Below, one piece after another: positions 1,112 to 24,626 of a stretch of DNA of 24,626 bases. Within the stretch, counting starts at the first letter, position 1. Each line of letters opens with the position of its first letter. This DNA comes from a virus. The translations under genes were made by a program, and so were the position numbers. The notes under the pieces were generated by a model. The model searched no databases. It was not told the origin of the DNA and saw only the letters and a program-made list of their open reading frames with translations. The DNA lies in the IMG/VR virus record IMGVR_UViG_3300032249_000144, positions 1-24,626 of that record; one strand, given 5' to 3'.

Positions 1112-1113
1112 GC

Positions 1114-1742: not shown

Positions 1743-1757
1743 TCAACTAATGCTCTA

Positions 1758-2681: not shown

Positions 2682-2702
2682 TTACGGCACCGCCTTTCTG
2701 GG

Positions 2703-3176: not shown

Positions 3177-3337
3177 TTGTCCTACTCCCTTTTCATGTTA
3201 GTCGCTGGCCACAATGCAATCGGGGAAATGCATTGGCTCCAACTTCCGGGTTTATACTCATCTCAAGTTCCGGCATTTCTAGAGATGGAGTGGGTGTCCG
3301 GGTCTCGAACCCGGATGATTGCCAATCACCCTATTAC
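3177..3337 (-). other. Structured intergenic spacer before the scaffold gene
   Basis: This is by far the largest gap inside an otherwise overlapping operon. It holds a tRNA-like element at its upstream end (3286-3331), and an inverted repeat CAATGCA / TGCATTG at 3212-3218 and 3229-3235 with a ten-base loop. Between them, on the minus strand, lies TATAAA (a possible -10) without a good -35. The spacer may separate expression of scaffold and capsid from the large virion proteins upstream, through processing or an internal promoter; this is inference. Confidence 0.5.
3286..3331 (-). other. tRNA-like acceptor/T-arm element (or tRNA 3' fragment)
   Basis: On the minus strand there is a perfect T-arm: CCGGG, loop TTCGAGA, CCCGG (3298-3314). 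It is followed by an acceptor-like ACACCCAC and then TCCA, like the end of many bacterial tRNA-Gly genes. GGGTG (3327-3331) can pair with CACCC (3292-3296), closing the element. Between the closing stem and the T-arm is only a small hairpin, TGATTGGCAATCA (3316-3328). There is no D-arm and no room for a normal anticodon arm, because the LysM stop codon lies just upstream. So it is not a complete tRNA gene. It may be a 3' tRNA segment acting as an attachment site, or a minihelix that RNase P could cut. Both readings are inference. Confidence 0.45.
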
Positions 3338-7532: not shown

Positions 7533-10500
7533 TAGTTATTTCCTGTCTCTGTTGCAAATACACGCCAGTACATTACAGAGAAATCTGGGTGTTCGGAGAT
7601 TATCTGGTAAGCAGTTTGGTCTAACCATTGTGCTACATTTTCAACAGCTTTACCTGTAAGTGTCTTGTATCCTGCTTGTGCAACAGAATTCAATGCTGAC
7701 TCACGAGCCTGTAAGAACTTAGCCAAGCCCTTACCTGATTCGGTTTCAGCAAACTTAGGATTGCTAAGAGCCTGAGTTACCTCCTTGACAAGTGTCTCAC
7801 GAGGAACACCTGCTGCACGGAAGTCTGGCTGTCCACCGAAGTCATCATCCATTGCTGCCTTACGAGTCAAGTAGACCTGATGGGCTTGCTTTGGATCTGC
7901 ACCCTGTTGGATAGCGATGGCTTCATCGCTTTGTAACTTAGCCTTACGAGCTGTGTATACATAACGAGCCGCTTCCATCTGCATTTCAGCAGGTGATAAC
8001 TTAAATCGCTGGCCACGCTGTGCTTGCCATTTAGCAAATTCTTGTGAGTATTGTCCACCGGGGAAGAAGAGGGCAAACGCATTTGGTACTGCATTGGCAT
8101 CTTTACGGTTATTTGTATAGAAATTCCAAGCTTCATCAGTAGGAGTGATACCACCACGAGATCCAGATACCAGAGCAAAGAGTGCTGATTCGCCATACTT
8201 GTCAGCCCACTTGGCTACAGCAATTTCATAACTGTCTGGGTTGTTTGCACGGATCTGTAAGAAGTCATTAAACATAAGAGCCTGAACATGAAGTTCACCC
8301 TCTTTGTCCTTAGCAAGAATCTGAGGTGCAATAGATCCGGGAGCCACATTCTGTGTGATACCACGCCATAAGGCGAGGACTCGATTAACTCTACCTGCAT
8401 CTTCAAGAAGCTTTGCTTGTGCTTCTCCACCAAGTGGGAAGTCTCCATAGTTACCAGTTGATGCAAGATATGTCATCAATGGTCGAAGAGTGGAAACACT
8501 CTTCTCTTCAAAGGAGTTAATACCTAAACCGTAAAGAACTCTTTGGGCCCAAGCAGGTGTAAATGATTCAACGATTCCAGTCTTACCTTCAGGGGCTCCG
8601 AATGGATAGATCACATCACGGAGTTGATCTGCTGCCCAACCTTCTTGGCTCTGGATTAGTCGACCCAATGAAAGTTGAATTGCAGGGCCTACACCCGGTA
8701 GCAATTCATTACTGAATGCAAGGTTCAAAGATGGAATTGAAAGCGATGTTGGCATCGATGGAACCGCTTCACCGGTTGCTGTTGAAAGCATCCAGCCAAG
8801 TGCATTACCGGCTAGAGGGATAACCATACGAGGATCACCATAGGTTGGATCCTTGTAGATAAATCCTTGGCTTGGGTCATTCCAGTTCTGGCCAGTCCAT
8901 TCGTAAATGACACCAGTCTCTGGATGAGTCAAGAATTCAAAAGCGTTAGCAGCTTTGTAAGTACGAGCCTTGCCTTGTAGGCGGAAGGTATTGGCTACAT
9001 CTGTGCCAATCAACTTACTCCAAGTGGCAATAGTGTTACCCCACGCTGCTGCGAAAGGAGCCACTAAACGAGCTGCAACTGCATACTGCTTCTGTCGCAT
9101 TGCATCGTAGTAAAGCTTCTGTAGTTTATTAGCAGCAAAGTTATTTGCGATTGTATGCATATCATCGGCAGCAAGTCCTCGATCATCGAGTGTCTTAATT
9201 GCTTCACGCATACGAACCAATGCTGGGTTTTCAAACCCTGCCTTAAGTCCAAAGACTTTGATTCCACGAAGTTCCTTTTCTGCGATAGCAAGGATCTTAG
9301 TAGCCTCATCTTTAGTCATAAGGTTTAGGTTCTCTGCAACACCGTTCCAGTATTGCTGCTTAAACTCTGGGCCAAGTGCTGCTCGCTTTTCAATCGATGC
9401 AGAGACTTGGAAGAACTTAGATGCTGCTCGATCCCATTGACCCTTGAAGGATGCAACGGCACGAACATCATCTGTTGGAAGCTTGAGTTGGCCGATAGCC
9501 TTTGAGATGTCTGTTGAATCAACATATCCCTTAAGGATATTGGCAAGCCATACATCCTTTGACTGGGTTCCCTTTGGATTAAATCCGGGAGTTCTCTTGC
9601 CATCTACTGCAACCATTGCTTTACCAGAGATAAAGTCACGCAACTCTTGGCGGCCACCAGATAGATTATCAACACCTTCTGTGACTACCTTAAAGTAATT
9701 CTCCATAGCTTGACGAGCAATAGCCTCATCTGCATCAAGCATCAATGCACGATTGAGTTCATCAACCTTGGCAATCTGTGTACGAAGCAGGATTCCCTGC
9801 TCTGTCTCAAACATAAAGTCAACAATGAACTTCTCGTAATCACGAGATAGATCCATTCCTTGTGCTTGCTTCTTAGCAACAAAAGCTTCTGCTTCTTTGA
9901 ACCAAGGAGTAATCTTTCCATTGGCACCCTTGACTCCACCAGTAAGACCACCGGCAACTAGACGAGCCATTGCTGATTCACGGAACTGAAGGATTGCTCC
10001 GGCCCATGCCCGATTGAATCCTCGTTCTTCTGGTGTAATGAAACGCATACCGGTAGGCAGGATCTGTGAAAGACCACGAGTGCCTTGGCCCATACCAACA
10101 CCGATAGATCGAGACATCATTACGGCAAACTTATCTGCATCTGCAAGTGCTGCTGACTTAAAGCCGATTGCATCCATCTCTTCAACCGCTTTGTTGAAGT
10201 TTGTGCCAAAGACTGTATTGTCGAATCGAGACCATCGAGTAGCAAACTTAGCGATTGCATTACCCTCTGGGTTAGCCATCATCATTGCAGCAAACTGCAA
10301 TGGGTGATTGAACAAGGTTGTAGATCCACCAAGGAATGAACGAACCTGCATATCACCAACATTTCGTAGGATGTATGAAACACGACCTACGAGAACTGTT
10401 TGCTTGAAGAATGAGTCAAAGAGATCAGTAGTTACTGTTCTAAGTTGCTGTGCATTCTGTGACTGGGAGAAAAGGTTTCTTGTTTTTCCTGTGAGCTGAC

Positions 10501-13441: not shown

Positions 13442-13824
13442 TAACGCTTCTCATAATCTAATCTTTGTCCTAATCGAACCAAGTCTGGATCTGGATATAG
13501 GGCAATAAGTTGACGGACAAGTGTGGCAGTTTCGTCAGGTGCTTGTGGTGGGATAGGTAATACTTCATTACCCGGGCCAGCACCAAAGGCTGCACCGAAT
13601 GTAATCTCTTGATCTACATTTGGGTTTGGTGTAGAAAAGTTTCTGTTTGGCATAGCAGGTGCTGCGATCATAGGGCCCATTCCGCCACCCATTGCACCTG
13701 TTTCAGTTGCTGCTAATGGAACTCCGGGAGCAGTTTGTAATTGTGTGAGTTCTGTGTTCTCACCGTATGCTCCACCGGTAATGGATTGTGCTGCCTGCCT
13801 ACCAATGTATGGGCCTTCAGCCAT
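13441..13824 (-). CDS. Small Pro/Gly/Ala-rich hypothetical protein
   Basis: 127 residues from the chosen ATG at 13822-13824 (MAEGPYIGRQ), which has GGAGG six bases upstream. A start seven codons earlier (MKKWRLK) is possible but has no such site. Residues 30-95 are low-complexity, rich in Gly, Ala, Pro and Met (GAMGGGMGPMIAAPAMPNRN), and probably disordered. The last 30 residues form an amphipathic helix (ETATLVRQLIALYPDPDLVR). Not recognised. Its start overlaps the preceding gene by eight bases and its stop overlaps the giant gene by one base. It may assist the portal or the giant protein; this is inference from position. Confidence 0.7.
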   Translation of the reverse strand: MAEGPYIGRQAAQSITGGAYGENTELTQLQTAPGVPLAATETGAMGGGMGPMIAAPAMPNRNFSTPNPNVDQEITFGAAFGAGPGNEVLPIPPQAPDETATLVRQLIALYPDPDLVRLGQRLDYEKR

Positions 13825-14056
13825 CTTTAGCCTCCATTTTTTCAATGTCTTGTGTCATCTTCTCCCACATATACTGCTTCTTTGCTTCGTTTACAGAATG
13901 TGAATGGATAATCTTTGTTATCAATGAGAAGAAATCTGCGAATGAATAACTTATTTTATATAGTAAATCTGCTACTGCGTAAACAAAATCTATCTTCTTT
14001 GCAGGGCGAGCCAACACAAACATATCATCGAGTTCATCGAAGTTATCTTCTGACAT
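13817..14056 (-). CDS. Small hypothetical protein with hydrophobic helix
   Basis: 79 residues. An acidic start (MSEDNFDELDDMF) is followed by a hydrophobic aromatic stretch (FVYAVADLLYKISYSFADFF) that could be a membrane-associated or amphipathic helix, and by a basic, helical C-terminus. AGGAGG lies eight bases before the ATG. I do not recognise it. It lies in the portal-to-giant-protein interval, where phages often keep small head-tail joining or assembly proteins; that link is position only. Confidence 0.65.
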   Translation of the reverse strand: MSEDNFDELDDMFVLARPAKKIDFVYAVADLLYKISYSFADFFSLITKIIHSHSVNEAKKQYMWEKMTQDIEKMEAKDG

Positions 14057-14077
14057 TGACTCGCCCTCCTAAGATTG

Positions 14078-14224
14078 TTACTTAGCTTTCTTTCCTGATG
14101 CTGATGCTGGCTTTCCTGTTTCGCCAAGCTTCTGCATTCCTGCCTTGCCTGATGCAGACTTCTTACCCATGATTGGGCCAAGAACTAGAGCCTTAGCTAC
14201 TGCACCCTTTTTTACTCCGAACAT
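14078..14224 (-). CDS. 48-residue Lys/Gly/Ala-rich basic peptide
   Basis: The frame starts at the ATG 14222-14224 with GGAGG six bases upstream and stops with TAA at 14078-14080. The peptide begins MFGVKKGAVAKALVLGPIMG and continues with KKSASGKAGMQKLGETGKPA, ending in KKAK. It has about 11 Lys, no acidic residue apart from one Glu, and no clear fold. It is in the operon directly after the portal gene. Small basic peptides in this position are common in phages of environmental origin, but I know no function. Its composition resembles the basic tails of the proteins at 1-1111. Confidence 0.65.
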   Translation of the reverse strand: MFGVKKGAVAKALVLGPIMGKKSASGKAGMQKLGETGKPASASGKKAK

Positions 14225-14244
14225 ATTGCACCTCCAGATGCGTG

Positions 14245-15999
14245 TTAAGCCGCCCCAGTTAGGGAAGCTAAAAGATCTGCCATCGGTGGGGTTCCACCTT
14301 GTGCTAGATCAGTTCTACGAGAATACTGGCCGGGGCCAGATACCATTTGGGAACCGGCAGCCGGGGCCGCTCCCGGAACCCCCATAGGGGGTTGCGAAGC
14401 ACCGGGGGCCATCGCAGTCGCTGCCGGTTGTTCTACTGGAGCAAACGCTTTAGCAACGATTGACTCCAATGCTTGACCTTTTGCTCGACCTTCAATGATG
14501 TCGGCGAGCCTCTTAACAGCTTCTGTTGGATCCCCACCCTGAGTAGCAAGCATTGGGATTGCGTTTGCATATTGTGCTACTGCGGTTCTTAATGAGTCAC
14601 GAAGTTCTTCGATGTCAATTCGTTGTTCTTCTTGTGTGACATTGATTGAGAATGGAAGATTGCGGCGGAGGAAGTCACGAGAAATCAACTTATCTCCACG
14701 AAGTTGCAATCCAAAGATTGCGGCACGGTTAGGATCTAGTCCTGCCATGAGTCCATACTGGACATCTACTGTGTAATCACCGTTGATGTCTTTCGATGGT
14801 GTGTATTTTAATTCGTATGGTGTTCCGTCATCGGATCCACGAATAGTTTTCTGAGTTGAACCGAATACTTGCTCATCTACACAGAATGCAATACCGATAA
14901 GATTTACAAAGAAGCGAGCAAAGACTGCCTGTGCTGCCTTGATCTGTGAATCGAAGCCACCCATAAGGGCTTGAACGCCACGACCTGTAACGATAGATGC
15001 ATCGATCTGACCTGTTCGGCCTTCTGGATAACGAGAACCCATACGGAGTTCACGCTCAAGTGCCTGTGATTCAGCAAAGACTCCGTTAGGAAGTTCGATT
15101 GGAACTCTACGGATTCTCTCTGGTGTATTAGATCGAAGCAAAGCATCTGGGCCAAGGGTAAATTCTTGGACATCTGGTGGAATAGCGATAGGTGCATTGA
15201 CTGACTTCTTCGCTGCTTCAAGCTGAAGGAGTGCAAATCGAGCCTTAGCCATCTGAACTGGTAGGACATCATCGAACTGACCACGAGTTTGACCATCAAC
15301 TGTTGGTCGTTCTGCTACATCTACAAGGATTTTGCCTAGAAGATTAGGGGTATTAGATAGAACTAGGTTATCTAATTCCGGTAAAAAGATTAAATCTTGA
15401 TACTTATCATGGTAGCGAACCATGGAAATCGTAGACTTCATACGATACTTGCTGTTGATCTGAGCCTTATACTCTGGATACTGTAGGGATAGAGACTCTG
15501 AATCAGACATAATGATCTGAGCCATAGCAACTACTGAGCCAAAGCGATCCTTTTCAAAGTAAAGACCGAAAGGATTAAGCATACGAATGCGTGGATTGTT
15601 GGTATCAAAGTCAATCTCCACCATACCTGCTGCAAAGCCATAGGTGTAATACCAGTCTGCTGCCTGATACATCTGAAGTTGTAGATCAGACTTATTGGCA
15701 TAGTGGTTGGCAATGCGTGTACGAATCTCAGCCTTTCTACGAGCTGAGTCGGAAGTCATGTTGGATGAGGCACAGTTAATTGCTGGAAGAGGGGCAGTTA
15801 CCTCGGCAAGGTCACGAGCTGCAATGTCAACCATGTTAGCGATGAGTGGCTTCGGATACTCATCAGAGAACTGACCGAAGAAAACATCTTGCATACGACC
15901 TTGACGGACAGCAAGAACATCTGCCATACGGCGATCACGATCCATGTTGCGTGTTTTAAGGCGTTCAACCTTAGCTGCAACTTCTTGAACTGAAAGCAT
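14245..15999 (-). CDS. Portal protein (head-tail connector)
   Basis: 584 residues from the ATG at 15997-15999, chosen because AGGAG lies a few bases upstream; an ATG 12 codons earlier overlaps the terminase gene and lacks a site. The protein would form the dodecameric ring at the DNA-entry vertex. It follows TerL, has the right size, and shows portal-like sequence: an N-terminal helix, YYTYGFAAGMVEIDFDTNNP with the wing-like beta region, MLNPFGLYFEKDRFGSVVAM (a portal segment that reads the tail path), and helical stem and crown parts at 300-460. The last 60 residues are rich in Pro, Gly, Ala and Met and likely disordered. The portal subfamily is uncertain. Confidence 0.85.
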   Translation of the reverse strand: MLSVQEVAAKVERLKTRNMDRDRRMADVLAVRQGRMQDVFFGQFSDEYPKPLIANMVDIAARDLAEVTAPLPAINCASSNMTSDSARRKAEIRTRIANHYANKSDLQLQMYQAADWYYTYGFAAGMVEIDFDTNNPRIRMLNPFGLYFEKDRFGSVVAMAQIIMSDSESLSLQYPEYKAQINSKYRMKSTISMVRYHDKYQDLIFLPELDNLVLSNTPNLLGKILVDVAERPTVDGQTRGQFDDVLPVQMAKARFALLQLEAAKKSVNAPIAIPPDVQEFTLGPDALLRSNTPERIRRVPIELPNGVFAESQALERELRMGSRYPEGRTGQIDASIVTGRGVQALMGGFDSQIKAAQAVFARFFVNLIGIAFCVDEQVFGSTQKTIRGSDDGTPYELKYTPSKDINGDYTVDVQYGLMAGLDPNRAAIFGLQLRGDKLISRDFLRRNLPFSINVTQEEQRIDIEELRDSLRTAVAQYANAIPMLATQGGDPTEAVKRLADIIEGRAKGQALESIVAKAFAPVEQPAATAMAPGASQPPMGVPGAAPAAGSQMVSGPGQYSRRTDLAQGGTPPMADLLASLTGAA

Positions 16000-16007
16000 T
16001 TTTCTCC

Positions 16008-17861
16008 TTATGCCAAACGGCGATCTGCGGCCCACTCATCAAGGTTGATGACCTGTCGCTTTTCGGCATCTGCTCGGGTGAGGAATTCATTGTGTACGAA
16101 CTTTCCGCCATACTCACCAAACTGGCAGATCTCTCTTGCTCTAATCTCGCAGAACCAGAGGGCCATAACAAGGTCTGTCTTGTTCTTAGTCTCTGGCGAC
16201 CATGTTACTAACTGGTCAATAAGTAATCGGATGCCTTCGTGTCGATCTGAAGGCAAGTGCATCAAGTTATCTCGATGGTGCTTACCATTGGATTCAACGC
16301 TTCCAAACAAGGAAGCCATTGCAGCGACACCAAATCCAACATCCCACTTATTTCTAGAAGTAGTGTGTTCCCGAAGAAGCACACCACGACTTGCTAACCA
16401 TTGCCGTAAATTCTCATCCTGTGTCAGATAACCCTGAAAGGCGTTTCGTTCAACCATCCATTCCGATGGTTTGTACTTTTCCGTAAATGTAGTGATGAGA
16501 TCACGGATGGCTTGCGGTGACGGTTTAGTTATAGTCGCAGCATCGAGGATATATCTTTTCTTTCTCCTACGATCTACAGCTACAACAACTGCCGCCGTAT
16601 CACCAACTATCGCTGGGTCAAGCCCTGCGATGATGGTGAGACCTTCTACTGTCTCGGGGTGTCCGGGATTGCCCGGAACGATTGGCCCGATCATTCTCAT
16701 TCTGTCGATAGAACCTTTAACGCAAGTCATGTTGAAGGTTGAGTCTTCATCAACATCTGCTTGCTGGTAAACCATCGACCAAGTCTTTGGGTCTAATGCA
16801 CTTCTACGCATGGATAGATACTTGCCATCCCAGCGTGGGTATAGACCGTCTTCGTCTGCCTCTTCATCGCTGCCCTGCCAAGGGCGGTCTGATTTAGGCC
16901 AAAGTGTTTTCCAGTCCTTCTGGTCTTCTGCAAACTCTAAAACTGCTGGCATGGCCAGATATGTCCAAGGTGATTTACCTGTTGGGTAGCGTTCACCGTT
17001 ACGAAGTTCTCTATAGAGGTCAATGGAATCTACTCGAGTTCCAAGAACTAAAAGCTTGCCGGTAGGCCCGAGACGAGTAAGGACTTCCTGTTGAATCCAA
17101 CGAATCTGTTTTTCGTATTCGTGGGAGTTCGACATAGTCACACAGTCGTCTAGGATAATCAGGTCTGCTCTCGCACCGTATACCTGTCCTCCGATACCGA
17201 TTGCTTGAATCGTAGGATCCTTCTGGTCTGAGTCACGCAGTTCGTCTCCGAGGTAGACTTGCGTAGCCTGCCATGTGGCTGACTTAGACTTGAAGCCTGA
17301 GCCAGCAGCGTAAGCGAGTTGTAGCTTCTGCCACGATGGGTGAGTCAAACGCTGTTTAATAGCGTAGATAAATTCTGTTGCCTTCTGCTGTGACTTCGAG
17401 ACAATCATGATACGGACATTGGGATCCATACAGATCCGGTAGACCGGATAGTCAATCGAGGTAGTCATCGACTTGGCGTGTTCAGGGGGCACATTCACCA
17501 GAACATACTGGGGGCGGCCTTGCTCAAATTGCATAGAGCTATGCATCCACTCAGGTTCATTACCTTCAAGAAGGTTGATGATATTCATCTGATGTGGAAA
17601 GGTGTCTGCTTCCAGATACTCCTTGCGGAAAGTACGGAAGTCCATCTCGAGGGATTCCTCAGACTGGATGCGGCCATGCTTTGATCTAGCAGCACGAACC
17701 TTATCTACAGTCTCTTTGAATTCTTTATCCGTGGAGCGGTAGTAATCCCACAGCTTTGCTGATCTGCCGACCTGCCGCATGGCATCTTCGACTGTGCAAC
17801 CCTCTGTAATCAGACGGATTACTTTTGCCTTGATCTTGGCTGTCTCTTCTTGTTTACTCAT
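16008..17861 (-). CDS. terL: Terminase large subunit with N-terminal HTH
   Basis: 617 residues. It pumps DNA into the prohead and cuts it. The ATPase part shows a Walker A-like VPPEHAKS at 124-131 and Walker B LIILDD at 234-239. The RNase H-like nuclease shows GLDPAIVGDT with Asp415, WMVERNAF with Glu471 and KTDLVMALW with Asp563, the usual three acidic residues. Residues 8-58 (VIRLITEGCTVEDAMRQVGR and following) look like the helix-turn-helix of terminase small subunits, and no separate small subunit gene is seen. I chose the ATG at 17859-17861 because AGGAGAG lies just upstream; an ATG 29 codons earlier has no site and its extra residues are unlike the family. The stop is eight bases before the portal start. 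Confidence 0.93.
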   Translation of the reverse strand: MSKQEETAKIKAKVIRLITEGCTVEDAMRQVGRSAKLWDYYRSTDKEFKETVDKVRAARSKHGRIQSEESLEMDFRTFRKEYLEADTFPHQMNIINLLEGNEPEWMHSSMQFEQGRPQYVLVNVPPEHAKSMTTSIDYPVYRICMDPNVRIMIVSKSQQKATEFIYAIKQRLTHPSWQKLQLAYAAGSGFKSKSATWQATQVYLGDELRDSDQKDPTIQAIGIGGQVYGARADLIILDDCVTMSNSHEYEKQIRWIQQEVLTRLGPTGKLLVLGTRVDSIDLYRELRNGERYPTGKSPWTYLAMPAVLEFAEDQKDWKTLWPKSDRPWQGSDEEADEDGLYPRWDGKYLSMRRSALDPKTWSMVYQQADVDEDSTFNMTCVKGSIDRMRMIGPIVPGNPGHPETVEGLTIIAGLDPAIVGDTAAVVVAVDRRRKKRYILDAATITKPSPQAIRDLITTFTEKYKPSEWMVERNAFQGYLTQDENLRQWLASRGVLLREHTTSRNKWDVGFGVAAMASLFGSVESNGKHHRDNLMHLPSDRHEGIRLLIDQLVTWSPETKNKTDLVMALWFCEIRAREICQFGEYGGKFVHNEFLTRADAEKRQVINLDEWAADRRLA

Positions 17862-17870
17862 ATCTCTCCT

Positions 17871-17887
17871 CGCCAGCTTCGCTGGCG
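17871..17887 (-). promoter_or_regulatory. Hairpin at the terminase ribosome-binding site
   Basis: CGCCAGC (17871-17877) pairs perfectly with GCTGGCG (17881-17887) around a three-base loop. In the message it ends one base before the AGGAGAG site of the terL start. A stable stem here could limit or time translation of terL, or protect the 5' end. Its effect is inference. Confidence 0.5.
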
Positions 17888-17991
17888 TGGTCGCCAAAGA
17901 TTTTTCATTGGGTTTAGCGGTTCTGAAAAAGAACAGACTACTGGGCATTTACTAGGGGCTTCTAGGTCGCCTTTGCTCGCTAGGGCTCGCT

Positions 17992-18110: not shown

Positions 18111-18549
18111 TTCTATCTATTGTGTGTAAAAGTGCAGGTCAGAGCCTATTTTACAGCTCGAGATCCTATCAAAAATATTTTTCTGGGTACATATATACAG
18201 GGGCCCCAGCCGTTTTAAGCACTCGGGTCAATTTGCCACCCCTGCGTGTCGAGCCCCCCTATGCCGATAACTAACATTATGTAAACCAACATTTACGGCG
18301 TGTCGGGGAGACATGGATCAAGGCCGGCCGGCCGGAGCTAGGGCCATTTAAAGGATCCGGATCTTTAAGATCGCCTAAGATCTAGGGCATGGATCCGGGG
18401 AGCTTGCAAGCTTGCCGGGAGGGATCCGGGCCGCAACTCTTCGAGCTTGCATCGATGGCCGCCGGGAATAGCTCGAGGATCCGGGGCCATGCTCCGGGAT
18501 AAGCTCGCCGGGGATCATCGACACGATAAAAAATAGTTTCGAAATAAGC

Positions 18550-18578
18550 TTGACTTTTTAAGCTGTATTCGTGATACC
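18550..18578 (+). promoter_or_regulatory. Sigma-70-type promoter of the plus-strand cassette
   Basis: TTGACT (18550-18555) is followed after 17 bases by GATACC (18573-18578), or after 16 bases by TGATAC, close to the actinobacterial -35/-10 pattern. It is the best promoter in the gap and stands 58 bases before the first cassette ATG, next to the first hairpin and leader. Confidence 0.55.
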
Positions 18579-18592
18579 ATCGGAGGCAAACC

Positions 18593-18638
18593 CGGCCGCA
18601 TCAAACCGGCCGCCTAGTAGTAAAGGATCAAGCTAATG
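18593..18638 (+). promoter_or_regulatory. Hairpin plus repeated leader, copy 1
   Basis: CGGCCG at 18593-18598 can pair with CGGCCG at 18607-18612 (loop of eight). The leader CCTAGTAGTAAAGGATCAAG follows from 18613, and its AAGGA serves as ribosome site for the ATG at 18636. Three other units of the cassette have the same arrangement. Confidence 0.7.
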
Positions 18639-18950
18639 TCTCTTATCATCATCCCATCGAATACCGATCTCCTCGAAGCTTCGAAGATCATCATCGATAA
18701 TCGCCGGCTTCAAGCTCTCGAATCATCCCTCGATCATGCGATCCGGGCTCTCGAGCTTCAAATTTCGGAGCTTGAGAAAGCTTCTCTCATCGATGGCGTA
18801 ATGCAAACCGGCATAATCGCCACCATGGCCCGGGAATCGATCGACACCTACCGAAAGGCGATCGAAGCTCTCGAGGAATTATCCGGGAAGATTTACGATC
18901 ATTTAACCGGTTACGGATCCGAAGAATACCGGGAAGCTGCGAGCCGGTAA
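18636..18950 (+). CDS. Helical hypothetical protein, first gene of cassette
   Basis: 104 residues. Apart from a short beta-like start (MSLIIIPSNTD) it is almost all helix, with heptad-like Leu/Ile spacing (LESSLDHAIRALELQISELE) suggesting a coiled-coil dimer, and an acidic C-terminal helix (YRKAIEALEELSGKIYDHL). No Cys, no membrane segment, no HTH that I can defend. Not recognised. The ribosome site is the shared leader AAGGATCAAGCTA. It is a unit by itself: the next gene has its own hairpin and leader. Codon choice is extreme (ATC, GAT, CTC, TCG and GAG dominate), following the DNA signature of the cassette. Confidence 0.75.
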   Translation: MSLIIIPSNTDLLEASKIIIDNRRLQALESSLDHAIRALELQISELEKASLIDGVMQTGIIATMARESIDTYRKAIEALEELSGKIYDHLTGYGSEEYREAASR

Positions 18951-18957
18951 CCGGTAG

Positions 18958-19035
18958 GCCTCGAGCTAATACCTCGAGGCTCTCCGGGTGCTTACTCTGG
19001 CATCGATTTAACCTAGCGAAAGGATCAAGCTCATG
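18958..19035 (+). promoter_or_regulatory. Hairpin plus repeated leader, copy 2
   Basis: GCCTCGAG (18958-18965) and CTCGAGGC (18973-18980) make a perfect eight-pair stem with a seven-base loop just after the first gene's stop. The leader TTTAACCTAGCGAAAGGATC starts at 19007 and leads to the ATG at 19033. The stem lacks a T run, so it is more likely a processing or stability element than a terminator. Confidence 0.7.
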
Positions 19036-19344
19036 TCATTAGCTCATTACTCTACGATCGAAGAGATCGAAGCCGATCACCGGTCAACCGGTGGCCATTT
19101 CTTCGATGCAGCTTCGAAGCGATTTTTTAATTCGAGGATCGGAGCCGCCGTCTACGGTGGCCGATTCTTCATTACCTCCGAGCAATTCGATCGAGATCAA
19201 TCTCCCCGGCTCTACACGATCCGAGAGTGCATTAATGGCCGGATCGAGGATCTCGGAGAATTTCAAGCTTACGCCACCGGGGCCGCAGCTCGAGCCGCTA
19301 TCCGTAAGCATCTCGAGAAGCTATCGATCGAGGCCGCAGCATGA
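19033..19344 (+). CDS. Small conserved phage protein (DUF7447-like)
   Basis: 103 residues. The pattern GGHFFDAASKRFFNSRI at 20-36, then YGGRFFITSEQF at 41-52, RLYTIRECINGRIEDLGEF at 59-77 and a final Ala/Arg helix is that of a small protein found in many phages of actinobacteria and proteobacteria, which I believe is DUF7447. The molecular role is unknown to me. The fold should be a small beta sheet with a C-terminal helix. Translation starts from the second copy of the leader, and the stop overlaps the next start by four bases (ATGA), opening a chain of four coupled genes. Confidence 0.75.
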   Translation: MSLAHYSTIEEIEADHRSTGGHFFDAASKRFFNSRIGAAVYGGRFFITSEQFDRDQSPRLYTIRECINGRIEDLGEFQAYATGAAARAAIRKHLEKLSIEAAA

Positions 19345-19577
19345 GCCGGGATACCGTATCGATCGCCGAGGCGATCACGCTTCCGGTGGGCTCCCGGGAT
19401 TATGTCGCCGGATGGTATAACTCTCCGGCTTCGAGCGTGTCGATCGTGGCGGCGAAAGGATACGCCGCCGATCCGGATCATCAAGCGGTAACCCTCGAGC
19501 TTGATCTTCGAGCTGCTCGAGGCCTTGTCCGATTCCTTATCGATGGGATCGCCGCCATCGAGGGAGCGAAGCGATGA
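19341..19577 (+). CDS. Small hypothetical protein
   Basis: 78 residues. Residues 1-55 look like mixed beta strands (VSIAEAITLPVGSRDYVAGW, then SSVSIVAAKGYAAD) and residues 53-75 form a helix (LDLRAARGLVRFLIDGIAAI). Not recognised. ATGA overlaps on both sides tie it to its neighbours. No membrane segment, Cys or catalytic motif is seen. Confidence 0.65.
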   Translation: MSRDTVSIAEAITLPVGSRDYVAGWYNSPASSVSIVAAKGYAADPDHQAVTLELDLRAARGLVRFLIDGIAAIEGAKR

Positions 19578-19759
19578 GGGCCGCAGCTCGCCGGATCCTA
19601 GGCTCGCCGGTTTATCGCCGGCGATGGGCCGGGGTAATCGGTGGGATCGTGTTATTCGCCGGGATCGTATGGATCTCCGGCCATGTATGGTGGACAGGAT
19701 CCGGATATTGTTTCGGGGATCTCATTAGCTGCTATTTCCCGGGGGAGGTGAAGAAATGA
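19574..19759 (+). CDS. Single-pass membrane protein
   Basis: 61 residues. A basic N-terminus (MRAAARRILGSPVYRRRW) is followed by a hydrophobic helix, AGVIGGIVLFAGIVWISG, and a short aromatic tail with two Cys (WWTGSGYCFGDLISCYFPGE). The positive-inside rule places the N-terminus in the cytoplasm. The two external Cys could form a disulfide. It could be a holin-like or superinfection-related protein, but its one helix and lack of typical features do not decide this. GGAG lies seven bases before the start. ATGA overlap on both sides. Confidence 0.65.
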   Translation: MRAAARRILGSPVYRRRWAGVIGGIVLFAGIVWISGHVWWTGSGYCFGDLISCYFPGEVKK

Positions 19760-19932
19760 GCGATGGCGTGAAGCGGATCACCGTAGCGATCTATTATGAT
19801 CCATCGAAGCGTGATCTATTGAATGGAGATTTATCTCGCCGCCTCGAGGGCCTCGAATGGTGGATCACTACCGAAGAGAAGCTCCCGGAGGGTAAGCTTA
19901 AGGTGTTAGATCTAACGCAGCTTAAGGATTAG
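19756..19932 (+). CDS. 58-residue hypothetical protein
   Basis: The frame starts at ATG 19756-19758, overlapping the previous stop by four bases, with GGAGG seven bases upstream, and ends at TAG 19930-19932. The protein starts MSDGVKRITVAIYYDPSKRD and has two Trp in tandem (LEWWITTEEKLPEG). It looks like a small beta-alpha-beta domain. Not recognised. The start is supported by site and overlap, and base composition matches the neighbours, so I consider it real. Confidence 0.65.
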   Translation: MSDGVKRITVAIYYDPSKRDLLNGDLSRRLEGLEWWITTEEKLPEGKLKVLDLTQLKD

Positions 19933-19954
19933 CTATCGATAGTTAGCTTCGAGG

Positions 19955-20034
19955 GCTCGAGCTTACCGGCTCGAGCTTTCGGAGATACCGATCGCCGGTA
20001 TCGATTTAACCTAGTAGTAAAGGATCAAATTATG
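19955..20034 (+). promoter_or_regulatory. Two hairpins plus repeated leader, copy 3
   Basis: GCTCGAGC occurs at 19955-19962 and 19969-19976 and can pair with itself (loop TTACCG). GATACCG (19984-19990) pairs with CGGTATC (19996-20002). The leader TTTAACCTAGTAGTAAAGGA begins at 20004 and leads to the ATG at 20032. It separates the four-gene chain from the next unit. Confidence 0.7.
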
Positions 20035-20439
20035 TCTAGCTTCACCGAAGAATTTATGAAAGAAGCCGATCGCCGGGGCTCCGGGGATATCGTTCGCTCG
20101 ATGCTCGATTCGGGCATGCTAATGGTGATCGATGCAAGCTCGGGAGATACTCTCGGGGATGCATCTAAGGCCATCCCGGAGCTTAAGGCCGGGCCTCGAT
20201 CACTATCAACCATCGCCGGGGAGATCATGGGCTCACCATGGTATCGATCTAACGCCTCGATCTATGCTCGAGATTATATTCAAGCGATGCAGCTATTGAA
20301 TAAGATCACCGATCAATATTTCGCAGATTCGGCCGAGAGTGTTGTCCGATACGCATTAAGCAACATGTCAACATGGCGAGGGGATCAAGCTCGAGCGATC
20401 AAGGCCGAGCTTAAGGATCTACTTAAGGGAGCGAAATAA
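20032..20439 (+). CDS. Helical hypothetical protein
   Basis: 135 residues, mostly helical. The N-terminal helix (FTEEFMKEADRRGSGDIVRS) is acidic and basic by turns, the middle has a short hydrophobic stretch (MLDSGMLMVIDASSGDTL), and the C-terminal half is a bundle-like region (DYIQAMQLLNKITDQYFADS) ending in basic KAELKDLLKGAK. Not recognised. It starts from the third copy of the leader. Its stop touches the next start with no gap, so both are probably translated together. Confidence 0.7.
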   Translation: MSSFTEEFMKEADRRGSGDIVRSMLDSGMLMVIDASSGDTLGDASKAIPELKAGPRSLSTIAGEIMGSPWYRSNASIYARDYIQAMQLLNKITDQYFADSAESVVRYALSNMSTWRGDQARAIKAELKDLLKGAK

Positions 20440-20715
20440 ATGGGCCGTAATTTTGCCGCCGATCTAGCATCTAACCCGGATCTAACCCTCGAGAGATCTC
20501 TCTCGATCCATCTAACCGGTAATCACTATCCGCCGGTGCCTCTCTCGATGGTGGATCCATGCATCGCCGCCATTAACGCAGCTAAGGCCCGAGAGTGGAG
20601 CAAGCTTATCGATCTACCGGCCGGCATTAAGTGGCGAGGTAAGGATCAAGCTCCGGTGTCTGCCCTAATCGAGGGCCATCACCTCGAATGCTTCATCGAT
20701 AGCGAGGAGGATTAA
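20440..20715 (+). CDS. Small actinophage-type conserved protein
   Basis: 91 residues. The segment GNHYPPVPLSMVDPC at 27-41 followed by AIEAA-like helix, then LPAGIKWRGKDQAPV at 59-73 and IEGHHLECFID at 78-88, matches a small protein I know from many actinobacterial phages, where the NHYPPVP motif is highly kept. No function is known to me. The conserved His and Cys residues could bind a ligand. GGAG lies eight bases before the ATG, inside the previous gene's end. This gene is one of the reasons for proposing an actinobacterial host. Confidence 0.75.
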   Translation: MGRNFAADLASNPDLTLERSLSIHLTGNHYPPVPLSMVDPCIAAINAAKAREWSKLIDLPAGIKWRGKDQAPVSALIEGHHLECFIDSEED

Positions 20716-20718
20716 ATT

Positions 20719-20868
20719 ATGGCGAGAGAATTCGAGATCAATAAGATCGAGATCTATAGGGTCTCGGCCGAGAGTGAGGCTAACGCCATCGATAAGATTA
20801 AGGATCTTGATAGCTCCGCAGCTTATGGGGTTACTTACCGGGCAACATGGGCCGGGCCGGCAACATGA
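20719..20868 (+). CDS. 49-residue hypothetical protein
   Basis: ATG 20719-20721 with GAGGAGG eight bases upstream; stop TGA 20866-20868. It begins MAREFEINKIEIYRVSAESE and contains ANAIDKIKDLDSSAAYGVTY, so a strand-helix-strand mini domain is likely. Not recognised. The next gene starts inside its stop (ATGA). Confidence 0.6.
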   Translation: MAREFEINKIEIYRVSAESEANAIDKIKDLDSSAAYGVTYRATWAGPAT

Positions 20869-20993
20869 GCGAATGCATGAATGAGGGCATGATCCCATGC
20901 TCACTCTTTCACGATAGCGATCTTAAGAATTGTTATCTTACTTTCTGCCTCGATTGCGGTAAGGATATCGCTCGAGATTGCGGATCCGTTTAG
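20865..20993 (+). CDS. 42-residue Cys-rich, possible zinc-binding peptide
   Basis: ATG 20865-20867 overlaps the previous stop; stop TAG 20991-20993. It has six Cys among 42 residues (4, 12, 23, 28, 31, 39); the clearest part is CYLTFCLDCGKDIARDCG. CLDCG is a usual zinc knuckle, so it may bind one metal with Cys 12 or 23 and Cys 39 as partners. This is inference. Too short to assign; it could act as a small regulator or inhibitor. Confidence 0.6.
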   Translation: MSECMNEGMIPCSLFHDSDLKNCYLTFCLDCGKDIARDCGSV

Positions 20994-21012
20994 CTCGATC
21001 TAACCATAGTGG

Positions 21013-21088
21013 GGCCCGGGGCATTAGCTCCGGGCCTTGCCATGGTGAGATCGCCTCGCCTAACCTAGAAGATAAGGATCAATTCATG
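21013..21088 (+). promoter_or_regulatory. Hairpin plus repeated leader, copy 4
   Basis: GGCCCGG (21013-21019) pairs with CCGGGCC (21030-21036), with a ten-base loop. The leader CCTAACCTAGAAGATAAGGA begins at 21058 and is followed by TCAATTC and the ATG at 21086. This decides the start of the gp88-like gene. Confidence 0.7.
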
Positions 21089-21898
21089 CGTAGTCTAATC
21101 AATATAAGAGAGAGGGATCCCTTACCGGATCCCGGCTCGATCTCCGGTCTCGATGTCGCTAAGGCTCGGAGGTTAGCGGCGGATAGTTTCGCCGCCTATG
21201 GCATCAAGGTGCCGAGCTATTTAATCCGATCGGATAGTAATAAGAAGCTAAGTCTCGAGGTGCCGGGTTATTACGGTATCGCCGGGCTAACCCTAACGCC
21301 GGCAGCTTATGGCCCGGCCACTACTTGCAAATTCTTCACGCATTGCAAGGATCTATGCGTTCTTACGCATGGCCGGGGAGCATTCGAGAGTGTGATCCGG
21401 GCTAGATCTGCCCGGGTATCGCTGCTTATGGATCAACCCGAAGCCGCCGCCATTCTATTAGCTCACGATGTCGATCGATACTCTCGAGCATTCGGTAAGT
21501 GGGGCCTCCGATTAAATGTCGCCTCCGATCTAGCGTGGGAGATCGCCTCGCCATGGTTGATCGATCGAGCTATCGCCGGAGGTGCCGCCGTCTATGATTA
21601 TTCGAAGCGATGGGATCGAGATCCCGAGCCGGTGCCCGGGTATCGATTAACCTTTTCGGCCGCCGGCCATTCGATCGAAGAGATCCGGGCTAAGGTATTA
21701 ACCGGAGCTAATGTCGCTATCGTAATGCCGATCGATAAGGGATCTCCGGTGCCGGATCGATGGCATGGGATACCGGTTATCGATGGAGATCTTCACGATC
21801 TCCGGGCCCTCGATCCTCGAGGGGTAATCGTATCGCTGCGAGCTAAGGGTAAGGCGATCCATAAGATCGGATCGAAGCTTATCTATGAGGTGGCCTAA
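21086..21898 (+). CDS. Phage gp88-like conserved protein with Cys cluster
   Basis: 270 residues from the ATG at 21086. The frame is open further upstream, but the upstream part overlaps the Cys-rich gene and the hairpin, and the conserved leader AAGGATCAATTC sits directly before this ATG. Matches to the mycobacteriophage gp88-like family (as I remember it): Cys81-x5-Cys87-x3-Cys91 in TTCKFFTHCKDLCVLTHGRG; LRLNVASDLAWE; VYDYSKRW; YRLTFSAAG; NVAIVMPIDKGSPVP; PVIDGDLHDLRALDPRGVIV ending with LRAKGKA. The three spaced Cys suggest a metal or Fe-S site. Mechanism is unknown; a role in replication or DNA metabolism has been suspected for such proteins, and I do not assert it. Confidence 0.75.
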   Translation: MRSLINIRERDPLPDPGSISGLDVAKARRLAADSFAAYGIKVPSYLIRSDSNKKLSLEVPGYYGIAGLTLTPAAYGPATTCKFFTHCKDLCVLTHGRGAFESVIRARSARVSLLMDQPEAAAILLAHDVDRYSRAFGKWGLRLNVASDLAWEIASPWLIDRAIAGGAAVYDYSKRWDRDPEPVPGYRLTFSAAGHSIEEIRAKVLTGANVAIVMPIDKGSPVPDRWHGIPVIDGDLHDLRALDPRGVIVSLRAKGKAIHKIGSKLIYEVA

Positions 21899-22050
21899 TG
21901 ACTTATGGATGCGGAGCTTATTCATGCGTGAGCTGTTATCCTTACACTTACCGCTGCGAATGCGGCAAGGATTACCCGGAGCCGATACCGAATGGGCAGA
22001 AGATCCCCGAATGCTCCGAATGCGGAGCGATCTCGGAGGTAATCGCTTGA
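21898..22050 (+). CDS. 50-residue zinc-ribbon protein
   Basis: ATG 21898-21900 overlaps the previous TAA by one base, with GAGG seven bases upstream; stop TGA 22048-22050. Cys pairs at 20/22 (RCECGKDYP) and 39/42 (ECSECGAIS) give a zinc ribbon of the CxC...CxxC type. Two more Cys near the N-terminus (5, 10, 13) may add a second site. Such ribbons usually touch nucleic acid or partner proteins. Exact role unknown. Confidence 0.7.
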   Translation: MTYGCGAYSCVSCYPYTYRCECGKDYPEPIPNGQKIPECSECGAISEVIA

Positions 22051-22175
22051 TCGGTTTCGGTTTATTCATTCTAATATTCTTCACCTTACCGGTGGGAATT
22101 AGCGAGGATCAACCCTTGCTAATCGTGATCCCGATCGTGGCATTTATAGCTGCGATCATGATTGGAGATAAATAA
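22047..22175 (+). CDS. 42-residue two-helix membrane peptide, TTG start
   Basis: The chosen start is TTG 22047-22049, four bases overlapping the zinc-ribbon stop, because GGAGGT lies six bases upstream, an ideal distance. An ATG far upstream in the same frame would overlap the zinc-ribbon gene wholly and has no site. Sequence: hydrophobic IGFGLFILIFFTLPVG, a short charged loop SEDQP, then LLIVIPIVAFIAAIMIG and a DK end. Two membrane helices with a short loop and a gene position directly before a cell-wall lytic enzyme make a holin-like role plausible; this is inference. Confidence 0.6.
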   Translation: MIGFGLFILIFFTLPVGISEDQPLLIVIPIVAFIAAIMIGDK

Positions 22176-22577
22176 ATGCTTCATCGCTTCATGCTCGGAG
22201 CGGTTGCCATGGGGTTAGCTTTAACGCTAACCCCTCGGGAGCCGGTTATCGTAATGATCCCTCCGGTAATCAAACCGGAGCCGGCATTCGTGTCGGATAT
22301 TGAACTCACCGACCTACCTTTAGCTTGGCAAAAACTTGCCAAGTGTGAATCCAATGGTCGACTTAATGCTGTCAGCGGCACACGCAAACAATTTCAGGGA
22401 GCATTTCAGATTGAGTTCCCCCGGACTTGGGTTGCACATGGTGGCAGCAGCGGCACCCCAGCGAAGGATGCCACTCTAAGAGAACAGTTCCATGTAGCTC
22501 TTCATATCTATGCTGATCGTGGCTTCAAGCCATGGCCATACTGCGGCAAGTTCCTCAAAGAAGAATACGGAAGATAG
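22176..22577 (+). CDS. Rpf-like cell-wall lytic enzyme with N-terminal hydrophobic segment
   Basis: 133 residues. Residues 1-17 include a hydrophobic stretch (MLHRFMLGAVAMGLALTL), a signal peptide or anchor. Residues 50-124 are a transglycosylase-like Rpf domain: AWQKLAKCESNGRLN with Cys57 and the catalytic Glu58, then FQGAFQIEFPRTWVAHGG, and the closing GFKPWPYC with Cys123, the usual disulfide partner. Such domains cleave peptidoglycan and are typical of actinobacteria and their phages. GGAG lies eight bases before the ATG, which follows the membrane peptide's TAA with no gap. The base composition of the gene changes sharply at codon 40 (about 22290): the first part belongs to the palindrome-rich cassette and the catalytic part does not. 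It may act as endolysin or virion-borne wall enzyme. Confidence 0.85.
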   Translation: MLHRFMLGAVAMGLALTLTPREPVIVMIPPVIKPEPAFVSDIELTDLPLAWQKLAKCESNGRLNAVSGTRKQFQGAFQIEFPRTWVAHGGSSGTPAKDATLREQFHVALHIYADRGFKPWPYCGKFLKEEYGR

Positions 22578-22653: not shown

Positions 22654-22834
22654 ATGTCCTTGGATTATCTACCGAATAGAAACCACCGGCCTTGAATACC
22701 GTAGGCGTTGCTGTCCATACTCGAGACATCATCAAACCGCAATCACATTTAGGTGCAGCTTCTTCCTCTGTCATTCTGCGTTCAATCTCAACGCTGATCC
22801 CACACTTACTGCAACTGTATTCGTATGTAGCCAT
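22652..22834 (-). CDS. FmdB-type zinc ribbon protein
   Basis: 60 residues. YEYSCSKCGISVEIERRMTE at 4-23 with Cys8/Cys11, then Cys30/Cys32 in KCDCGLMMSRVW, and the end PTVFKAGGFYSVDNPRT follow the FmdB family layout (ribbon plus FK-GGFY motif). The second pair is CxC, where most members have CPxCG. Family members are presumed regulators that bind nucleic acid; true function is unclear. The start overlaps the preceding stop by one base (TAATG). It is the last gene of the minus-strand early block, and its stop lies within the T run of the terminator. Confidence 0.8.
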   Translation of the reverse strand: MATYEYSCSKCGISVEIERRMTEEEAAPKCDCGLMMSRVWTATPTVFKAGGFYSVDNPRT

Positions 22835-23310
22835 TAGTTATTGTAACTCCCTCTGAATTTTCTTAGACTCTCCTCCGGTACGCAATAGATCTCTGGTCTA
22901 CGCCAGTCAGGTTTATCCAACCACTCCGGGTTCTTTGCTTCTGCACCCATGATCCAACCAATCAGCTCGTAGTTAGGCATACCACCTCTAACCAATACGA
23001 ACTTAATATCATCTTTAGCATCAGGTCTAACAAGTAATCTACCCTGCTCATGCTTTGTGTATTTAACATCGATGTTCGGTTCAATATCTACACCACCTTG
23101 ACCGAAGGCACCGCCCCAGTAGACACCAAGATACTTAGCTACTGCTATCTCAGCACCGCAACCATCTACATCGAGAAGGATTCTCTGCCAAGGATCCATG
23201 TCTTGCAACCCACGCATCTGCACATTCTTCATCGTAGATACATAGCGTTCAATCGCTGTGTTAGCAGCGAGAACTACCTCGTATCTCTCAAGAACTATCT
23301 TTAGACCCAA
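22834..23310 (-). CDS. Possible PD-(D/E)XK nuclease-fold phage protein
   Basis: 158 residues from a TTG start (23308-23310), with AGGGGGG about eight bases upstream; no upstream ATG exists because the previous gene occupies this region. Glu54 in GAEIAVAKYL, then VDIEPNIDVKYTKHEQG with Asp81-x-Lys83, and the beta strands IKFVLVRGGM and YELIGWIMGAEAK, match the order alpha-E, beta-D, DxK, beta of restriction-nuclease folds, and the whole sequence resembles a phage protein I have seen with GWI-G-EAK endings. The nuclease call is a reading of pattern only; a non-catalytic member of the fold is possible. Alternatives: resolvase-like or host-DNA-degrading function. Neighbours are a sigma-like factor and a zinc ribbon. 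Confidence 0.55.
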   Translation of the reverse strand: MGLKIVLERYEVVLAANTAIERYVSTMKNVQMRGLQDMDPWQRILLDVDGCGAEIAVAKYLGVYWGGAFGQGGVDIEPNIDVKYTKHEQGRLLVRPDAKDDIKFVLVRGGMPNYELIGWIMGAEAKNPEWLDKPDWRRPEIYCVPEESLRKFRGSYNN

Positions 23311-23942
23311 GGCGTTGGCCCCCCTAAGTGATCGATGATCTTTCTTAGTGAGCCTTGAATCTTTCTATCTACTGTTGAATCACTTATGCCCATCTCTTCT
23401 GCTATCTCAGACAAAGTCATTGGGCTATTGGAATACCTATTGCGTAACATCACCTGCTCATCTGCATCCAGCAGATCTATTGCAGATCTAATATCAATTA
23501 CTACGGCCAAGATATTGCCACCCTCACTTGGAACTGATGGCTTGCGTGGGGTGCCATCGTCTACCTTGTCAACCATTACTGCACCGTATGAATCAAACTC
23601 AAATGCAACTGGCAACATCTTGGCTATCGTTATCGTGTCGTAGAAGAACTCATCGCCGGTTGAATAGCCAAGCTTTGCGGCCTTCTCTTTCCTTGCATAC
23701 TTCTCAACTGTCCTGCGGAATCGTGCCATGATCCGCCTTGCTACCCACTTAGTCTCATCCTTACTTACCTCGTAAGCCTCATCCAACATCTTGGCTAAGT
23801 GAGGTCGCTTAAGAACATAGACTCGAAGCTCTTGAATCAGATCCTCTTTATCTACATAGCCAGCAAACCTGCGATGGATGTGTGCTGCGGATATATGCAC
23901 GAGATCTTCAAGGTGATCCTCAGCACGATCTTTCTCTTGCAT
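23301..23942 (-). CDS. Sigma-factor-like transcription protein
   Basis: 213 residues. The N-terminal part has a region-2-like helix (YVDKEDLIQELRVYVLKRP at 29-47), and the C-terminal 56 residues are a region-4 HTH: LDADEQVMLRNRYSNS, then LSEIAEEMGISDSTVDRKIQ and SLRKIIDHLG. A middle linker (about 60-150) is basic then variable (TVEKYARKEKAAKLGYSTGD). Phage sigma-like proteins redirect host RNA polymerase to phage promoters or replace a host sigma factor; whether this one has a full region 2 is uncertain. It starts in a TAATG overlap with the membrane peptide gene. It could be the regulator for the late operon, whose promoter has no clear -35; this is inference. Confidence 0.75.
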   Translation of the reverse strand: MQEKDRAEDHLEDLVHISAAHIHRRFAGYVDKEDLIQELRVYVLKRPHLAKMLDEAYEVSKDETKWVARRIMARFRRTVEKYARKEKAAKLGYSTGDEFFYDTITIAKMLPVAFEFDSYGAVMVDKVDDGTPRKPSVPSEGGNILAVVIDIRSAIDLLDADEQVMLRNRYSNSPMTLSEIAEEMGISDSTVDRKIQGSLRKIIDHLGGPTPWV

Positions 23943-24043
23943 TAGTCCTCATCTTCTAGCTCGATGATGGCATCCATCACGAACTTAGCAACGAAGAACA
24001 CCAATGTAATTACAAGAGTTGCAATTAAAAAAAATTTCTTCAC
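23942..24043 (-). CDS. 33-residue single-pass membrane peptide, GTG start
   Basis: The GTG at 24041-24043 overlaps the preceding TGA by three bases, and the stop TAA at 23942-23944 overlaps the sigma gene start by one base. The peptide has a Lys pair, a hydrophobic helix (KKFFLIATLVITLVFFVAKF), and an acidic tail (ELEDED). Too short for a family. The tight junctions on both ends support it as a real gene. Confidence 0.6.
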   Translation of the reverse strand: MKKFFLIATLVITLVFFVAKFVMDAIIELEDED

Positions 24044-24480
24044 TTGTTCTCTGGCCACTTTCCACGAGTAACCATCATGGCAATGATGCAATAGTTAGCA
24101 AGATCTTTGAAGGAATCCTCAATGGATTCATGCTGTGGCTTCTCACCGGATGCAAGTAGATTCTTTAGTCGTTCAAACTTATCACCCATACGAACCATCA
24201 ACCCATTGATAGGGCCACCGTATGCATTGTTGATATTGCCCGGGCCGTAGTCTCTTTGCTTACTGATAAGTAGGTTGCCAAGCTCATCGATAATATCCCA
24301 CGAGTCAGCAACGAACTGATTCATCACCGGGTCTGCGGTAGTTGAACTACTATCTCGAGGGCCAAAGGCAGATCCGGGTTTATATTTAGACTTAGGACTT
24401 TTAGGCCGAAGCTTTCCAGTAAGTCTTTCAAACTCTGCATCGTCATTGGATCTATTGATTCCGTACTCATACTCGCTCAT
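24040..24480 (-). CDS. DUF1599/MazG-like nucleotide-metabolism protein
   Basis: 146 residues. After a poorly ordered N-terminus of about 50 residues comes a helical domain with the family motifs: KQRDYGPGN at 74-82, GLMVRMGDKFERLKNLL at 93-109, and HESIEDSFKDLANYCIIAMM at 117-136. The Glu/Asp residues of these helices usually bind magnesium and a nucleotide, as in the MazG and dUTPase-like all-alpha fold. DUF1599 (nucleotide modification associated domain 1) has been linked to base metabolism, but the reaction is not proven. The gene overlaps the primase end by 14 bases. The extra N-terminus is longer than in many relatives. Confidence 0.75.
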   Translation of the reverse strand: MSEYEYGINRSNDDAEFERLTGKLRPKSPKSKYKPGSAFGPRDSSSTTADPVMNQFVADSWDIIDELGNLLISKQRDYGPGNINNAYGGPINGLMVRMGDKFERLKNLLASGEKPQHESIEDSFKDLANYCIIAMMVTRGKWPENK

Positions 24481-24625
24481 CTATTCCCAGTCTCCTTCGT
24501 AGCCCATCTAAACCCTCATCTAATACTATAGAGTTTACATCACTTCCGAGTGGAAGTGGTATCAATTCTGCGTGTTCAACTTCTTGTAAAACTTTCTCGG
24601 CCAACTCCATCCCCGGATTAGATCC
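24467..24625 (-). CDS. C-terminal end of a primase/TOPRIM protein (partial)
   Basis: Only the last 52 residues are in the window; the start lies beyond the right edge. The end of the sequence reads MELAEKVLQEVEHAELIPLP, LGSDVNSIVLDEGLDGLRRR and LGID. A helix after a GN-like turn, a strand ending in LP, then G-DVN is the usual finish of a TOPRIM domain in phage DnaG-like primases. The catalytic part is not in view, so this is a pattern-based call. The stop lies 14 bases inside the next gene. Confidence 0.5.
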   Translation of the reverse strand, partial: GSNPGMELAEKVLQEVEHAELIPLPLGSDVNSIVLDEGLDGLRRRLGIDERV

Positions 24626-24626
24626 A

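Follow-up and report, generated by a model that had tools for sequence, protein, structure and literature searches.

The virus record IMGVR_UViG_3300032249_000144 of IMG/VR is the genome of a freshwater actinophage, and its complete 24,626 bases were analysed as a single window. Structural genes and the terminase occupy the minus strand up to position 17,948, and a run of small genes ending with a transglycosylase begins on the plus strand at 18,636 (Table 1). Between the terminase and transglycosylase genes lies an island of about 4 kb, an exchangeable cassette written in coding and non-coding DNA alike from a narrow set of short words, a usage referred to below as a dialect. A first-pass annotation had placed this island at 18310-22290 and described it as saturated with the palindromes GATC, TCGA, AGCT and CCGG. 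The counts bear out the saturation and also the right edge, which falls at 22290 within the transglycosylase gene; the left edge had been drawn slightly too far in, as the maximum-likelihood segment is 18245-22290.

Within 18.5-22 kb the four words together occur 66-101 times per kb where base composition predicts 16-17, and the remainder of the window, at 9-23 per kb, is ordinary. The excess survives correction for composition and is missing from the rest of this genome, as it is outside the island in longer relatives. GATC leads with 112 copies against 15 expected (ratio 7.3), followed by TCGA (89 copies, 5.8 times expectation), CCGG (87 copies, 4.4 times) and AGCT (59 copies, 3.8 times); GGCC, TTAA and CATG stand at about twice expectation, and all 4-bp palindromes pooled at 1.95 times, so that the class is not under-represented in the island. 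ACGT, GTAC, GCGC and CGCG have zero copies there, GTAC having a ratio of 0.26 in the flank; ACGT, GCGC and CGCG are fully absent outside the island as well (1-17800 and 22700-24626), which is ordinary restriction-site avoidance. The poverty in AC, CA, GT and TG that the annotation had reported is likewise present (AC/GT 0.45, CA/TG 0.63), with CAG/CTG at 0.19 and GAC/GTC at 0.20; the trinucleotides of lowest ratio all contain A adjoining C, and the asymmetric words ACTG, CAGG, CGTC and GGAC stay below 0.1 times expectation. The symmetry of the words ends at 4 bp with no dyad extension, which rules out extended dyads as the source of the pattern. The outcome is a small vocabulary: with strands collapsed, 3.4 kb of the island contains 1031 distinct 6-mers, compared with no fewer than 1346 in each flank window and 1651 after shuffling, and the saving from words shared between strands at this length is 5.4-10.2% in islands versus 3.1-6.6% in flanks.

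Table 1. Features of the island and its surroundings in the window.
Feature	Position	Strand	Basis
Terminase large subunit; divergently oriented neighbour, not written in the dialect	16008..17948	-	
Predicted genome terminus / start of direct terminal repeat, by the island's left edge	18190..18320	.	Placed by homology: intergenic alignment with FlowerPower
Dialect island (maximum-likelihood segment), coding and non-coding	18245..22290	.	Segment fit and word counts
Non-coding leader, rich in dialect words	18310..18635	.	Word counts
104-amino-acid protein, no family	18636..18950	+	
DUF7447 protein	19033..19344	+	Pfam E=4e-18
78-amino-acid protein, no family	19341..19577	+	
Small predicted membrane protein (..ISGHVWWTGSGYC..), kept at the island locus across dialects	19574..19759	+	
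58-amino-acid protein (..LEGLEWWIT..DLTQLKD), orthologs in differently written cassettes	19756..19932	+	
135-amino-acid protein, phrog_13953, function not known	20032..20439	+	
91-amino-acid protein	20440..20715	+	
49-amino-acid protein	20719..20868	+	
GP88-family protein, 270 amino acids, source of the tree	21086..21898	+	PF17338, E=8e-22
Transglycosylase (Rpf-like) gene; dialect ends at 22290, 24 nt ahead of the conserved domain	22176..22577	+	

The dialect is a property of the DNA and not of codon choice, since its words begin at about the same frequency in each codon phase (84, 85 and 95) and are also present in the spacers, at 82 per kb compared with 89 per kb in coding DNA. Recoding leads to the same conclusion: the coding DNA holds 264 words, whereas the same proteins written with flank codon usage hold 84 (maximum 101) and with the island's own codons shuffled 153 (maximum 177). 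A codon-usage island is excluded on these grounds, in keeping with the annotation, which had seen that non-coding DNA shares the signature and had argued against codon preference.

A search with the GP88 protein recovered 27 contigs with proteins 74-100% identical, and 27 of the 27 islands carry the same signature, the DNA being normal beyond the island wherever a contig reaches further. Tetramer ratios are near-constant in 12 islands (GATC 5.9-7.6 times expectation) despite identities between GP88 genes as low as 73%. Reconstructed by parsimony on the GP88 tree, 968 substitutions account for 147 gains of a word and 144 losses, where a null placing the same substitutions at random matching sites, and taking no account of amino-acid constraint beyond codon position, gives 65 gains and 305 losses. 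Singletons among near-identical islands agree in direction, with 18 gains where the null gives 3.9 and 5 losses where it gives 25.8, although their polarisation is imperfect as several sequences are near-copies. All sequences compared are metagenomic consensus, and word counts are non-independent among close relatives, a kinship for which the tree and the cross-lineage test described below correct in part. This record of substitutions indicates that the dialect words are actively maintained, with lost words being replaced.

Such turnover bears on where the island came from. Transfer from a genome with this signature had been offered as a possible cause in the annotation, and cassettes do move between backbones: in L015 the flanks differ by a synonymous divergence (dS) of about 1.75 and the GP88 gene by only 0.36. 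However, a recent transfer is not what is seen, because 27 relatives share the dialect and gains are as frequent as losses, and the GP88 tree shows no decay of a foreign signature toward that of the host. Word turnover at equilibrium down to 73% DNA identity, with near-constant ratios at up to 27% divergence, therefore contradicts a passive relic, and the absence of local word clustering beyond a Markov-3 simulation in the window island (z=1.2) rules out cryptic simplicity made by slippage; both are extremely unlikely. A mutation or repair process confined to the region and acting without selection, such as a special polymerase or a recombination path at the genome end, would account for coding DNA and spacers being biased alike, for recent substitutions that already preserve words, for transversions being commoner among island singletons than among flank ones, and for a synonymous divergence of close pairs similar to that of the flanks. 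Its difficulty lies partly in magnitude (GATC 7 times, CAG 0.2 times), as we know of no mutational bias of this size, and partly in the relatives described next, where a separate bias would be required for each cassette on near-identical backbones and where island-only losses that strike 4-bp palindromes would be left unexplained; this process is considered quite unlikely.

Relatives L032, L033 and L035-L037 match the window at 95-98% identity in the flank on the terminase side, and their DNA differs from it beyond 18,39x, the other edge of the divergent DNA lying at 22,314 in L033. The differing cassettes encode orthologs for part of the small-protein set, in unchanged order, but each is written in another dialect. 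L033 favours ATTC/GAAT (99 copies versus about 26-33 expected), L042 favours CGAG, CAAG and AATC, L046 favours CTTC and TCGA with TAA at 32 versus 134, and L054, whose terminase is 57% identical, favours AGAG, CTAA and GGTA. That near-identical flanks carry different dialects ties the dialect to the cassette, with no obvious dependence on the host. Non-palindromic dialect words are mostly balanced between strands (ATTC 49, GAAT 50), with AGAG in L054 as an exception (88 and 25); this suggests that selection acts on double-stranded DNA and dismisses a reading at the RNA level. Avoidance of DnaG primase sites (CTG/GTC) was also considered and does not fit the other dialects. The relative entropy of three-mers is high in the 4 kb upstream of the terminase in many family members and at background beyond. 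Island lengths range from 3.35 to 4.84 kb, and the inner edge lies 0-24 nt ahead of the transglycosylase domain in most islands; as it tracks the gene whatever the length, it is a cassette boundary and not a measured distance.

Several further observations were made in other lineages. Methyltransferase-like genes (DPPH-motif and C5-cytosine types, judged by eye) adjoin the transglycosylase gene downstream of the island in L105, L110 and L107, and DnaN-like proteins are encoded inside several islands of these lineages. The 47.6-kb contig G001 (L112-L114) carries its virion gene block twice (about 1-11 kb and 40-47 kb), probably as an assembly artefact. An unrelated phage fragment of 62% GC, L299, has a dialect region of about 4 kb (about 2000-6100) that ends at the terminase gene, with TCGA at 42 and GATC at 31 (6 expected in each case) and with CGAG and AAAA also in its dialect; this region, directly upstream of the terminase, carries DUF932 and DUF7227 genes. 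In the 45.9-kb genome G009 (L315-L317; IMGVR_UViG_3300021255_003234) an extreme dialect extends genome-wide, with a 3-mer Kullback-Leibler (KL) divergence of 0.13-0.32 in every kb, and its 9.6-kb locus L294 has 17 CAG versus 315 expected and 0 CCAG versus 83.

The position of the island is informed by Streptomyces phage FlowerPower, whose terminase is 44% identical and whose deposited sequence has exact terminal repeats of 253 bp directly preceding the terminase gene. Through a conserved intergenic block the boundary of this repeat aligns with the window at about 18.2 kb; if an end of the FlowerPower type is valid there, the island would be the terminal 4 kb of a linear genome, its exact end being predicted by homology. 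This end most likely enters the host first, as its genes are transcribed inward at the end opposite the terminase-proximal one, which is the usual arrangement of first-entering ends.

A link to restriction comes from the cultured phages E7 and F5 (LanE43-AprE7 and LanE43-AprF5; OX376640, OX376641), which were isolated on Planktophila LanE-43 (PMC10202952). They belong to the same family as the window phage (terminase 49% identical) and share the locus, which adjoins terL, WhiB and sigma genes. Unlike the window, they show no dialect at this locus, and GATC, AGCT, CCGG, GGCC and CATG are all at zero throughout their 39 kb. This absence suggests that Planktophila hosts carry several type II systems with 4-bp sites and makes type II pressure on these five words likely in Nanopelagicales hosts. 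At the locus syntenic to the island, E7 (L321) encodes an ArdA anti-restriction protein (423-773, minus strand; Pfam E=1e-8; PHROGs), and no obvious ArdA counterpart is present in the open reading frame (ORF) list of F5, from the same host strain. Across 26 lineages, tetramers that are normal in the flank yet lost from the 4-kb region at the predicted terminus were tallied; outside the window clade these island-only losses strike 24/270 palindromes versus 65/5044 other tetramers (odds ratio 7.5, p=5e-12), with palindromes lost in 2/221 and 3/219 cases in control flank blocks. In the window clade the pattern is reversed: asymmetric tetramers are the ones lost, and GATC, CCGG, AGCT and GGCC are not avoided in the flanks, which suggests that these palindromes are safe in the host of this clade.

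The same words could instead have been loaded onto the end as decoys that titrate host restriction enzymes, and those enriched in the island (GATC, CCGG, AGCT, GGCC and CATG) are exactly the ones absent from the cultured Nanopelagicales phages. Cleavage of the end with the early genes should kill the phage, however, the unavoided words in the flanks imply that the host probably leaves them uncut, and the loss of asymmetric words would have no explanation, making decoys very unlikely. The restriction-linked cause raised in the annotation is favoured in another form, as avoidance combined with a restricted vocabulary at the genome end, and not as decoys. Pure avoidance fails as the sole cause, as forbidding even 50/136 tetramer classes predicts GATC at 2.7 times expectation versus 6.8 times; either the re-use of safe words or a positive role of palindromes must therefore be added. 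A positive role would follow if the words were selected as dense sites for a DNA-binding protein of phage or host, or for host methylation at GATC, TCGA, CCGG and AGCT that marks the end, in the way that clustered Dam sites label DNA at the P1 pac site. Positive preference does exceed avoidance, exact 4-bp palindromes without dyad extension resemble type II methyltransferase sites, and the island adjoins the terminase and predicted terminus. The words of other lineages at this locus are nevertheless mostly non-palindromic, about 90 words per kb over 4 kb far exceeds known site clusters, and no methyltransferase was recognised by eye among ORFs above 100 amino acids in three longer relatives, which removes a phage methyltransferase as the cause; marking of this kind is unlikely overall.

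The explanation we tentatively prefer, at somewhat less than even likelihood, is that DNA exposed first to the host is confined to a limited set of words by which it evades sequence-specific restriction, the island being an exchangeable early-gene cassette at the genome end that most likely enters first. Selection would hold its double-stranded DNA in this vocabulary such that host restriction (restriction-modification, bacteriophage exclusion (BREX) or similar systems) finds few or no targets in what is exposed before the phage takes over. Every cassette lineage would have its own vocabulary, with most relatives purging several 4-bp palindromes in this stretch only, and the window clade would have cleared asymmetric words, with almost all NCAG/CAGN and GACN/NGAC gone, and rewritten its genes and spacers with 4-bp palindromes. 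Fewer different recognition sequences would then be offered, because few words are re-used and each, as palindromes are by construction, is common to both strands. Restriction as the selecting agent is what we infer, and several points weigh against it. The ends of T7, lambda and FlowerPower show no such word bias; the extra sharing of vocabulary between strands is modest and is not shown by T5; two Vibrio relatives of T5 have no raised bias in the region equivalent to its first-entering DNA; and avoidance alone is, as mentioned, too weak. An inner edge that tracks a gene is what a cassette, and not an injection step set by time, would give, and different dialects stand on nearly identical flanks. 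A published survey of phages also detected no systematic avoidance of Type I or Type III sites (PMC6286503).

Restriction avoidance competes with three main alternatives: a mutation process peculiar to the region, a role of the words as dense binding or methylation sites, and mimicry of the host. A further reading, possible but doubtful, takes the genome-end dialects as a self-maintained, lineage-specific identity borne by the cassette, the short words on incoming double-stranded DNA being read by something. The reader might be a host defence or a phage-encoded one used against competing phages, and near-identical phages would switch identity by swapping the entire 4-kb cassette. Avoidance of restriction sites is commonly assessed across entire phage genomes, and if selection is concentrated on the first-entering kilobases such counts would miss the strongest signal. 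If true, the vocabulary of the end would be a readable record of the sequence-recognising defences met in uncultured hosts, and the island would show selection on DNA prevailing over the choice of codons, and even of amino acids, across several genes.

Among known systems, the nearest parallel is the first-step-transfer (FST) DNA of phage T5 (L141 1-10219), which is terminal, carries early genes and is annotated as entering the host first; first entry is thus on record for T5, whereas for the window island it is predicted. The tetramer usage of T5 FST DNA shows no correlation with that of the adjoining 17.5 kb tested (r=-0.02) but agrees with that of the corresponding region in Klebsiella phage Sealy (r=0.81) and Serratia phage Kamaji (r=0.84). 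Its words are strand-symmetric in both coding blocks (GCGC 53 versus 14 expected, AGAG 12 versus 64), usage is flat after about 12 kb, and the first 30 kb contains 0 EcoRI sites versus 10 expected. It is also partly E. coli-like (r=0.56, compared with 0.08 for the adjacent T5 DNA tested), which is what would be anticipated if the word usage of a leading end were modelled on the host chromosome, as camouflage or by descent from host DNA. For the window island such mimicry appears quite improbable, as its bias (standard deviation of the log ratio) of 0.96 is twice the 0.45 of E. coli and near-identical phages carry different dialects. The comparison with databases proposed in the annotation returned no cellular locus with the dialect among the GTDB dialect-string matches listed, which were mostly high-GC without the signature, and the GP88 alignment, scanned against GTDB, yielded no relative.

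General literature searches for early regions enriched in palindromes came up empty, and the dialect appears to be undescribed in the literature searched and to be a variant form of restriction-site avoidance. It shares its word class with the palindrome avoidance known from phages (PMC6286503), as relatives purge 4-bp palindromes at this locus and E7 and F5 do so genome-wide, but it differs in that the island's palindromes are enriched up to 7-fold, asymmetric words are purged and a single 4-kb region is concerned. The leading regions of conjugative plasmids resemble the proposed role of the island in being first-entering DNA with anti-defence genes, among them anti-restriction genes, although to our knowledge no comparable word dialect has been described in them. 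T5 FST DNA likewise resembles the island in holding early genes at an end, which for the island is a predicted one, and in a strand-symmetric word usage of its own, and it departs from it in a weaker bias (KL 0.07 over 9 kb versus 0.25), its likeness to E. coli and the lack of a general 4-bp palindrome enrichment. Should the restriction reading hold, the old idea attached to first-step transfer in T5 would become testable across many phage families from sequence alone.

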